34,586 nt of DNA, taken from Candidatus Coproplasma stercoripullorum (GTDB lineage: Bacteria > Bacillota > Clostridia > Christensenellales > Borkfalkiaceae). Below, piece by piece: positions 7,726-12,847 of this stretch. The stretch is taken from positions 1 through 34,586 of the forward strand of contig DVHB01000121.1 in NCBI GenBank assembly GCA_018712405.1, given 5' to 3'. The first letter of the stretch is position 1. Each line of letters begins with the position of its first letter. The notes below the pieces were generated by a model. That model saw only the letters and a program-made list of their open reading frames with translations. It was not told the DNA's origin and made no database searches. Both the position numbers and the translations under genes were made by a program.

Positions 7726-8799
7726 ATGAAAAACAGTAAAGTTTATTTGACGCTTGAAAACGGCAGGCAGTTCACCGGATTTTCTTTCGGCGCACAGAAG
7801 GAAGTTGTCGGTGAACTCGTTTTCACGACCGGCATGACGGGCTATATCGAAACGTTGACCGATCCGAGCTACTACGGACAAATAGTCACGCAGACTTTTC
7901 CGCTCATCGGCAACTACGGCATGATAGAGGCCGATATGGAGAGCAAGAAGTCCTGGGTGACGGCTTATATCGTTAGAGAAAAATGCGACAAACCTTCAAA
8001 CTTCAGGTGCGAGGGAACGATCGACGATTTCCTAAAAAAACAGGGGATTCCTGGAATATACGGCATAGACACGCGCGAACTCACTAAGATTGTGCGCGAG
8101 GCAGGCGTTATGAACGCTGCCATTACAAAAAAACCGCTCAACGATCTTTCCGAGGTGCGTTCGTACGTCATAAAAGATGCGGTAAAATCGGTTACCTGCT
8201 CTGAAATAGAATACTTAGGCGACCCTGACGGAATAAAAATAGCCGTCTGGGATTTCGGTGCAAAATGCAACATTATGCGCGAGCTTGCAAAGCGCGGCTG
8301 CTACTGCATGAAGGTGCCGTCGTACTACACGGCAGAGCAGATCCTTGCCCTTGAACCGCAGGGTCTCATGCTAACGAATGGCCCGGGCGACCCTTCCGAG
8401 AATACCGAGATAATTTTAAATATCCGCAAACTTGCTGGCAAACTTCCAATATTCGGCATATGCCTCGGTCATCAGCTTTTTGCGCTCGCCATGGGCGGCA
8501 AGACTAAAAAGATGAAATATGGCCACAGGGGCTCAAACCAGCCGGTAAAAAATCTCGATACGGGCAGAGTGTATATCTCCAGCCAGAATCACGGCTACGA
8601 GGTGATCTCTTCCAGCGTTGAGGGCGGCAAGCTCAGCTTTGTAAACGCCAACGACGGCACCTGCGAAGGATTTGAATACCCCGAACTCAACGCCTATACC
8701 GTTCAGTTCCACCCCGAGGCGTGCGGCGGTCCCATGGATGCGTCCTTCCTTTTCGATAAATTTATACTAAACATAAAGGAGGGCAGGTATCATGCCTAA
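7726..8799 (+). CDS. carA: Carbamoyl-phosphate synthase, small (glutaminase) subunit
   Basis: CarA hydrolyses glutamine and channels ammonia to CarB. The protein has 357 residues, with an N-terminal CPSase small-subunit domain and a C-terminal class I glutamine amidotransferase domain. The nucleophile Cys246 is in GICLGHQ, and His329 and Glu331 are in QFHPEACGG. AAGGAAG precedes the ATG. The stop overlaps the carB start by 8 bases. Its place after argF suggests the carbamoyl phosphate serves arginine synthesis. No pyrimidine genes are in the window, so supply of both pathways cannot be excluded. Confidence 0.96.
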   Translation: MKNSKVYLTLENGRQFTGFSFGAQKEVVGELVFTTGMTGYIETLTDPSYYGQIVTQTFPLIGNYGMIEADMESKKSWVTAYIVREKCDKPSNFRCEGTIDDFLKKQGIPGIYGIDTRELTKIVREAGVMNAAITKKPLNDLSEVRSYVIKDAVKSVTCSEIEYLGDPDGIKIAVWDFGAKCNIMRELAKRGCYCMKVPSYYTAEQILALEPQGLMLTNGPGDPSENTEIILNIRKLAGKLPIFGICLGHQLFALAMGGKTKKMKYGHRGSNQPVKNLDTGRVYISSQNHGYEVISSSVEGGKLSFVNANDGTCEGFEYPELNAYTVQFHPEACGGPMDASFLFDKFILNIKEGRYHA

Positions 8800-11700: not shown

Positions 11701-12847
11701 CACAAAGGGTACGGCGAATGTTATCCGCAGCCTCGGCATAGAGTGCACGGAAGTTGCCCGTCTTTCCACGAATGACGATATATTCAAACTGATGGACGAA
11801 GGCAAGATCGATTATGTTGTGTATACCGGCAAGACGGATATGGAGTCGATCACCAACTATATTTCGCTCCATCATCACGCAATACTTCTCGGAATAACGG
11901 TGCTTACTTCGCTAGATACGACTAATGCGCTTGCAGACTGCATTGCCGGCAGATATACGCAGTTCAATACCGAGCTCGTAGATATTAACCATCTGCGCAG
12001 GGAGAAGCTTAAGCTGAATTTCTGCAAAATGCACAGCTGCGGCAACGACTATATCTTCTTCAACAACTTTGATAACAAGATAACCTGCCCTGAATCGCTC
12101 GCCATAAACTTCTCTGACAGGCATTACGGCATAGGCAGTGACGGTATCGTCATGATAGAAAAGTCGGACATTGCCGACTGCAAGGTGCGCGTATTCAATC
12201 GCGACGGCAGCGAGGCGGGGCTTGCCGCCAATCCTTTGAGATGTGTGGCCAAGTATGTATTTGACAAGCATATAGTGAATTCCGGCAAGATTTCCATTGA
12301 GGTCTGCGGCGGGGTGAAGACGCTTGAAGTTGTGTCGTTCAACGGCGTGGCAAGCTCTGTTTCGGTAAATCTCGGTGCGGCCACGTTCGATCCTCAAGAG
12401 ATTCCCGCAAATACCGAGGGCGAGGTCGTGTTTGCTCCCGTCTCGTTCGACGAAAAGGTGTACGATACTGTAGCCGTGAACGTGGGTAATTCGCACTGCA
12501 TCACCTTCTGCGATAAGGTTGACGACGTTGACCTCGAAAATCTCGGCCAGGCTGTTCTTGCTTCGGGTATGTTCCCCGGTATAGCCTATGTGGAGTGTGC
12601 GAGGATAGTCAACGACCTCACGATAAAGTTGCGTGTGTGGGACAGGGTGAACGGCGAAACTATGGCTTGCGGCACAGCTGCTGCGGCGGTAGTTGCGGCG
12701 GCTGTCAGGGCGGGTAAGTGCGCCCGCGGCAAGGTAATAACTGTTAAGCTGCGCGGCGGCGACTTATTTGTGAAGTGCCTTGATAACGGCGACCTCGTGC
12801 TCGACGGCTCGGTAAAACAGTCTTATGAAGGCGTGATAGAGATATAA
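8792..12847 (+). CDS. carB: Carbamoyl-phosphate synthase large subunit fused to a DapF-like domain
   Basis: The first approximately 1072 residues are a complete CarB: two ATP-grasp halves, opening with [20 protein letters not shown] and again near residue 550 with [20 protein letters not shown], then an MGS-like allosteric domain. CarB makes carbamoyl phosphate from bicarbonate, ammonia and two ATP. From about residue 1074 the same frame continues into an approximately 278-residue diaminopimelate epimerase fold, starting [13 protein letters not shown], with no internal start and virtually no linker. The first DapF catalytic cysteine (usual motif MCGNG) is replaced: the segment reads GLAANP, with Ala1145 at the cysteine position. 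The second cysteine remains (Cys1293 in ETMACGT), but the neighbouring WERG reads WDRV and GTGA reads GTAA. Epimerase activity is therefore doubtful, and a ligand-sensing or structural role is possible. AAAGGAGG precedes the ATG. The stop overlaps the next start as TAATG. Confidence 0.95.
   Translation: [1351 protein letters not shown]

Follow-up and report, generated by a model that had tools for sequence, protein, structure and literature searches.

A CarB–DapF fusion that has likely become, several times over, a carbamoyl-phosphate synthase subunit with a retained pseudo-epimerase domain

The contig of Candidatus Coproplasma stercoripullorum analyzed here (DVHB01000121.1; the window, meaning the whole stretch of 34,586 nucleotides) encodes a protein in which CarB, the large subunit of carbamoyl-phosphate synthase (CPS), runs in frame into a domain related to the diaminopimelate (DAP) epimerase DapF. 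We consider it likely that an ancestral bifunctional CarB-DapF has several times turned into a CarB that retains a pseudo-epimerase, probably in a regulatory or structural role. The fusion is a single open frame of 1351 amino acids (8792..12847; this and all other features described in the window lie on the + strand). Its CarB part (residues 1–1052, 8792..11947) matches TIGR01369, the profile of the CPSase large subunit, over residues 2–1050 with 1387.2 bits against a cut-off of 1027, covering model positions 1–1051 of 1052, and a match to NF003671 spans fusion residues 1–1052. Pfam places in it two CPS halves, an oligomerization domain, and an MGS domain at residues 953–1039, so that a full-length CarB with all of its domains (D1, D2, D3, and MGS) is present. 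The DapF-like domain (residues 1076–1351, 12017..12844) matches TIGR00652, the DapF profile, at full length over residues 1076–1349 (203.6 bits, cut-off 114.65; model positions 2–268 of 270) and the DapF structure 2otn in the PDB with an E value of 4e-56. The in-frame fusion right after the MGS domain, as proposed in the initial annotation, is therefore borne out by one frame with full-length curated matches to both proteins. The sequencing error near position 12000 that might have produced it is excluded because the same architecture recurs in many genomes of the genus, order, class, and phylum. The same conservation rules out an assembly or frameshift artifact, and its recurrence in relatives rules out an oddity of one genome.

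DapF catalysis requires two cysteines, here called Cys1 and Cys2. In the window, motif alignment places Ala1145 (codon 12224..12226) at the position of Cys1, which is Cys83 in Corynebacterium glutamicum DapF (CgDapF), and Cys1293 (codon 12668..12670) at that of Cys2 (CgDapF Cys221). The first motif reads GLAANPLRC in the fusion and KMCGNGIRC in the separate DapF of the same genome, with AANP in place of CGN; the second motif, ACGT, is kept, and the separate copy has both cysteines. The description of a complete DapF-like domain thus holds for the span of the sequence but not for the active site. The available text of PMC5296763 describes the C83A, C221A, and eight pocket mutants of CgDapF as nearly inactive. 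By homology to these mutants we infer a loss of epimerase activity, and since the equivalent C83A exchange nearly abolishes CgDapF activity, no epimerase activity is expected of the window's fused domain. The window's genome (G000; a draft, 82% complete) has the fusion as its single CarB above cut-off; its separate dapF lies on contig C88 (281–1105), which also carries dapL (3432–4598). The missing cysteine together with this second, intact dapF speaks against an active bifunctional enzyme in the window, and the notion that the polypeptide joins two pathways should not hold here in the sense of two active enzymes.

Across 112 genomes with the fusion, the state of the cysteines follows whether the fused epimerase appears to be needed. 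Need was scored as DapL above cut-off (TIGR03542) with no other DapF above cut-off; DapF copies were counted with TIGR00652 in 99 genomes, by protein search in twelve others, and by separate genome searches in the window's genome. The domain is needed and has both cysteines intact in 41 genomes, and it is not needed and has lost one or both in 63 (only the second in G767 and G072), leaving seven that are not needed and intact and one that is needed and lost. The agreement, 104/112, corresponds to a Fisher p of 4e-22 with relatedness not corrected for. In 42 of the 112 the fused DapF is the sole DapF found and has both cysteines (41 with DapL, plus G736), and such proteins are probably true bifunctional enzymes. 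For genomes in which Cys1 is lost and a second DapF is missing, a further route is relevant, as the available text of PMC4176475 states that Ddh makes meso-DAP without DapF, while DapL yields LL-DAP. Nine such genomes were searched for Ddh; eight have Ddh and none has DapL above the cut-offs, the remaining one (G789) having neither. A single origin of all cysteine losses is rejected by the approximately unbiased (AU) test (p 0.0017), for a group named before the tree in question but after earlier trees. When only losses are counted, the best tree requires seven, and at least four remain if only well supported branches are trusted. One genome with 6% contamination (G629) holds three DapF copies (L112, L231, and L126), two of them separate, each beside a dapL, and the third a fused pseudo-copy.

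Outside the window's genus, the DAP pocket has largely been retained where Cys1 was lost. Among the fused copies in general, Cys1 is replaced by Ala, Ser, or Gly. We scored 12 pocket positions besides Cys1 and compared them with 70 other equally conserved positions. In the five Cys1-lost groups outside the genus (13, 36, 8, 8, and 5 rows), pocket retention is 0.99, 0.92, 1.00, 0.98, and 1.00, against 0.88, 0.85, 0.92, 0.93, and 0.87 at the other positions in the same order; the Cys1-intact fused group (52 rows) gives 0.98 and 0.97. An explanation based on ligand binding predicts this combination of lost catalysis and kept pocket. The fused domain may be an allosteric sensor, a reading to which we give somewhat less than an even chance. 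The pseudo-DapF would then bind DAP, or another amino acid in the window's genus, and its signal would reach the MGS/CPS core by way of the junction, including a takeover from the nucleotide site of CPS. This reading is favored by the loss of mainly Cys1 among the active-site residues in those groups and by the nearly constant length of the junction, and it has a parallel in human CPS1, which according to the available text of PMC4655335 is switched on by an amino-acid derivative at its C-terminal domain. The earlier suggestion of a DapF fold that might sense an amino acid and tune CarB is plausible in this light, being compatible with a lost catalytic cysteine and a kept domain. In the window's genus, however, the ligand would have to differ, as N194 (CgDapF numbering throughout) has given way to Tyr or Phe in 35 of 37 rows, and Lys takes the place of R213 in 30 of them. 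The window itself keeps N15, N74, N85, N159, R213, and T223, with N194 changed to Tyr and E212 to Asp, so that the full substrate pocket is not preserved. Over the genus, 26 positions are fixed in ways that are rare in active DapF.

The effector domain of CarB bears on the same reading. The altered MGS region of the window (VARLSTND ...; 11753..11893), identified by aligning it with the E. coli and human enzymes and by group comparison, has Arg at the position of E. coli Lys993 and Tyr at that of Asn1015, keeps Thr977, and reads HH where human CPS1 has RR. In the available text of PMC6245113, Thr977 and Lys993 of E. coli CarB are residues named for inhibition and binding by uridine monophosphate (UMP). 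Throughout the large pseudo clade, which includes the window and covers 18 families in a DapF tree of 134 rows, the MGS motif STSxxGRxPxRDSVKIRRKA is replaced in every row that could be scored (84 of 84, out of 86). It is kept in the other 21 Cys1-lost rows, 19 by pattern and two (G483 and G042) as one-residue variants by eye. Among the 52 Cys1-intact rows, the motif is matched by pattern in 43, and by eye G436 and G343 come close to it; six are unscorable, and G767 is a real exception. A tree of CarB before the MGS domain, from which the motif sites are excluded, places the large pseudo clade, G767, and the unfused CarB of G215 together with a support of 99. The replacement of the motif in this clade, with the motif kept in the other Cys1-lost rows, speaks for a sensor that took over from nucleotide control, but the MGS change and the cysteine loss coincide on one branch only, and chance is possible. 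Within this clade by its CarB, G767 has a very divergent domain (L174, 155.6 bits) in which the first cysteine is present and the second lost, an arrangement that may reflect a reversal, an exchange, or a separate path.

The fused pseudo-domain is under constraint, but more weakly so than an active domain. Among 12 close pairs of the window's genus, rough estimates of the ratio of nonsynonymous to synonymous substitution rates (dN/dS) are 0.052–0.11 in the pseudo-domain and 0.011–0.025 in the adjoining CarB part for 11 pairs, with no dS obtained for L025/L056. Seven of the nine Cys-lost pairs elsewhere give 0.02–0.23 and two give no value; the highest of them, L079/L080, reaches 0.21 in CarB too. 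In four of five Cys-intact pairs dN/dS is 0.00–0.035, and the fifth, L187/L188, has 0.105 with a mis-aligned CarB part. The domain of the window thus has the marks of a pseudoenzyme, a lost catalytic residue together with a full-length domain and purifying selection, and the retention of the domain after the loss of its cysteine suggests a second, noncatalytic job. That job could be structural, with CarB folding, assembly, or the binding of CarA or another partner depending on the domain without any ligand. We regard this as somewhat unlikely. It would account for a domain that is kept through catalytic loss and under purifying selection, and the available texts lend it support: DapF forms dimers (PMC5296763), Pseudomonas aeruginosa aspartate transcarbamoylase (ATCase) requires an inactive dihydroorotase chain for its activity (PMC7053772), and E. 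coli DapF has a second role by direct interaction with RppH (PMC4227774). A structural role leaves unexplained, however, why the pocket outside the window's genus is better conserved than other sites, and the clade of G215 lives without the domain.

In G215 (L239, C1:431600-435200), the unfused CarB ends in the junction motif of the fusion (12 residues). A stop comes next, and behind it what by eye resembles a terminator, an arrangement that reads as a clean secondary loss of the DapF domain. The tail of this CarB is matched in 67 of 120 genomes of its family: five frames of 1064–1076 residues are 87–100% identical to the query, and four of them look like G215 by length, next to 51 frames of at least 1335 residues and 11 other shorter frames. 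Such a clean loss, and the faster evolution of pseudo-domains (dN/dS 0.02–0.23 over 18 Cys-lost pairs as compared with the Cys-intact values above), would fit a decaying relic, a harmless leftover of the bifunctional ancestor that is heading for loss. This is improbable, given that dN/dS is far below 1, that no complete copy in the window's genus has an interrupted frame, that the large pseudo clade spans its 18 families, and that the groups outside this genus retain the pocket. In the window's genus and family, ten fusion-less genomes (G009, G017, G018, G035, G229, G138, G168, G251, G427, and G078) were searched for CarB and none has one above cut-off, which indicates that the domain disappears there with the whole synthase; fusion-less G392 and G383 have a CarB of normal length. 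Finally, a new one-cysteine enzyme, with Cys2 alone catalyzing another reaction (an elimination, or the racemization of another amino acid), is very unlikely even though 36/37 rows in the window's genus keep Cys2, as do most rows that lost Cys1, and proline racemase relatives with one cysteine replaced are dehydratases, because the residue replacing Cys1 varies, six genomes of family f24 have kept the domain after losing both cysteines, and the C83A variant of CgDapF described above is nearly inactive as an epimerase. At the f24 loci (L192, L198, L200, L204, L213, and L221) both cysteines are Ser, in the motif SGTS ... ASG[TS]G.

The junction between the two parts carries information on the origin of the fusion. 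The initial annotation saw no linker, but about 23 residues (1053–1075; 11948..12016) separate the two profile matches, with an 11-residue motif common to relatives and a near-constant length. Between the end of the CarB match and the start of the DapF match lie 15 residues in 139 of 158 fused frames and 16 or 22 residues in four; in the other 15 the distance is unreadable, repeated CarB hits having given negative values. The constant length and the common motif speak for one fusion event. In G470, carB, dapF, and dapL follow one another as three separate genes; a stop and what by eye is a ribosome site lie between the first two. G689 has separate genes in the same order. Two separate genes in related genomes had been put forward as grounds for doubting the fusion; they do occur, but as separate adjacent genes of a carB-dapF-dapL operon they look like the arrangement before the fusion and do not refute it. 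The fusion probably arose by loss of the carB stop in such an operon. In several Cys-intact fusions the junction still resembles a ribosome site with an ATG behind it where dapF used to begin, for example ATGAGGAAGGATAAAATG (G488). A relic start codon preceded by a 4-base ribosome-site string is found in 13/44 Cys-intact and 6/107 Cys-lost fusions (Fisher p 0.00017, relatedness not corrected for; seven frames were not placed), and in the 13 Cys-intact cases free DapF might also be made from an internal start. In the window such a start is ruled out, the ancestral dapF start position being CTT, which is not a start codon. On the DapF trees the fused domains gather on one side with few exceptions: the label "standalone" takes two changes on the tree of 192 rows and three on that of 134, where standalone G038 and G438 lie at the base of and inside the fused side, respectively. 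A single origin of the fusion is likely, though not proven.

The fusion is widespread. A first survey covered 61 genomes, namely the window's own, 36 of its genus, and 24 of its order. An open frame of 1342–1385 amino acids that includes the DapF part is present in 29 of the 37 genomes of the genus; the fusion is split by contig ends in three more (G005, G019, and G020) and absent in five (G009, G017, G018, G023, and G035). It occurs in other families of the order as well. One frame spanning MGS and DapF was found in at least 57 of 391 genomes of the class and at least 19 of 398 of the phylum, 17 of the latter outside the class; both sets include the window's genome, and the counts, made by hand from match lists, are lower bounds. 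The architecture, whose taxonomy the initial annotation had left to be mapped, thus recurs across order, class, and phylum and is not a singleton. In a scan of GTDB r220, the best 80 of at least 586 relatives all match at least 410 of the 412 query residues. The titles of these 80 loci include Clostridia, Oscillospiraceae, Ruminococcus, Saccharofermentans, Peptococcaceae, and others; nearly all are metagenome bins, and Neglectibacter sp. X58 is the only apparent isolate with the fusion among them. Both cysteines are present in 39 of the 80 and not both in 41, and dapL lies within 1.6 kb downstream in 6/39 of the former vs 0/41 of the latter (one dapL query; 10 other loci have too little downstream sequence). 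The fusion was also seen in bins titled Treponema or Chitinispirillia (L281, L291, L295, and L301), by mis-binning or gene transfer.

We infer from these observations that the ancestor was bifunctional and that the fused domain now has a regulatory or structural role. CarB and DapF would have been fused, probably once and deep in a group that the titles of relatives point to as Clostridia, when the carB stop was lost in a carB-dapF-dapL operon. The first product would have been a bifunctional carbamoyl-phosphate synthase/DAP epimerase, which many lineages appear to keep as their only detected DapF; in these Cys-intact lineages the fused domain, behind its near-constant junction, should epimerize LL-DAP. 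Where a second dapF was present, or DapL was absent (usually with Ddh), the fused DapF would mostly have lost Cys1, on several separate branches, and the domain would then have stayed in frame under purifying selection. The protein of the window would be such a CarB-pseudoDapF, with a normal CarA-CarB core performing carbamoyl-phosphate synthesis and the separate DapF of its genome presumably performing DAP epimerization. In the Cys-lost lineages, the fused domain should serve CPS noncatalytically, most likely in ligand-dependent regulation or assembly. More speculatively, a series may lead from the bifunctional enzyme to a DAP-sensing allosteric domain, with nucleotide control at the MGS domain replaced in the large clade and the pocket retuned to another ligand in the window's genus by the changes of N194 to Tyr/Phe and R213 to Lys.

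Several observations weigh against this account of repeated conversion to a retained pseudo-epimerase. Both cysteines are kept despite another DapF in G089, G391, G408, G436, G438, and G473, and G736 keeps both with Ddh and without DapL; G221 lost Cys1 though DapL is present and no other DapF was found. Ddh alone is no predictor, since 21 of the 27 Ddh-tested genomes in which the domain is needed and intact carry Ddh beside DapL. Independent pairs compared by a sign test give no significant result, with a mean of 1.8 pairs in the same direction and 0.0 in the opposite one among four supported-branch pairs, too few events to give the test power. The genomes are drafts taken without a completeness filter; fragments below cut-off, a second DapF in G230 and G042 and DapL in G363 and G042, counted as absent; and need was judged by DapF and DapL, with Ddh, but not the acyl DAP pathways, searched in addition. 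As to constraint, many dS values exceed 1, which makes the dN/dS values rough, and three of the 26 pairs have no value. The domain was dispensable in one family clade (G215 and the four others by frame length). Retention of the pocket in the window's genus (0.69, 37 rows) does not exceed that of other sites (0.73). DAP itself may therefore not be bound there; its binding by the window's protein is doubtful, and it is equally likely that the ligand has changed or that the role is structural. As to a single origin, the CarB-part tree requires two changes to separate the fused rows and G215 from other unfused rows, at a place where long branches meet.

The fusion forms the end of an argG-C-J-B-D-F-carA-carB cluster. 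The genes argG, argC, argJ, argB, argD, and argF (918..7634; Pfam and NCBIfam matches) lie upstream of carA, which encodes the CPSase small subunit of 357 amino acids (7726..8799; TIGR01368, 423.7 bits, cut-off 307) and whose 3′ end overlaps the start of the adjoining carB. Genes for a NifS-like cysteine desulfurase and ThiI follow directly downstream (12847..15130). At 12845–12849 the stop codon of the fusion shares one base with the start codon of the NifS-like gene, such that transcription of the arginine gene cluster may run on into nifS-thiI. No RNA control element in the window was matched by Rfam at gathering scores.

Taken together, the fusion offers a natural experiment, as the domain keeps its catalytic residues where an epimerase should be needed and mostly loses them where it should not, and a structural or sensory function is thus separable from catalysis without engineering. 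It predicts a possible unrecognized control point of arginine and pyrimidine synthesis in a large group of Clostridia-like bacteria, and if DAP sensing is true, the supply of a cell-wall and lysine precursor would be coupled to carbamoyl-phosphate synthesis. Annotation is affected in two ways: lysine/DAP reconstructions go wrong if a fused DapF without Cys1 is taken for an epimerase, and genomes whose only DapF is an intact fused one seem to lack an epimerase if that domain is missed. Sequence databases probably hold CarB-DapF proteins under CarB names. No description of a CarB-DapF fusion was found among the papers listed in the literature searched, which covers few subscription papers, and the available text of PMC9026213, on DapF variants of gut bacteria, mentions no CarB fusion.

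Compared with known systems, the fused domain resembles DapF (EC 5.1.1.7; TIGR00652) in its full-length match, its second catalytic cysteine, and several pocket residues, and differs from it in the window by Ala in place of Cys1, a recognition subsite changed in the genus, and its position behind CarB. The protein is like CarB (TIGR01369) in having all domains above curated cut-offs and in being paired with carA, and unlike it in its C-terminal extension of ∼300 residues and remodeled MGS effector motif. Three further systems are described here as far as the available texts go. Human CPS1 likewise keeps a glutaminase-like S2 domain without its catalytic cysteine (Ser294; PMC4655335), but S2 is an ancestral glutaminase part, whereas the window has an unrelated amino-acid epimerase at the other end. 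The E. coli DapF that regulates RppH (PMC4227774) is another DapF with a role besides catalysis, although it is a stand-alone protein with a different partner. Finally, P. aeruginosa ATCase with its pseudo-dihydroorotase (PMC7053772) also relies on an inactive homologue in the same metabolic branch; there, however, the chains are separate and the homologue derives from an enzyme of the same pathway, while in the window the two are fused and the inactive partner comes from a different one.

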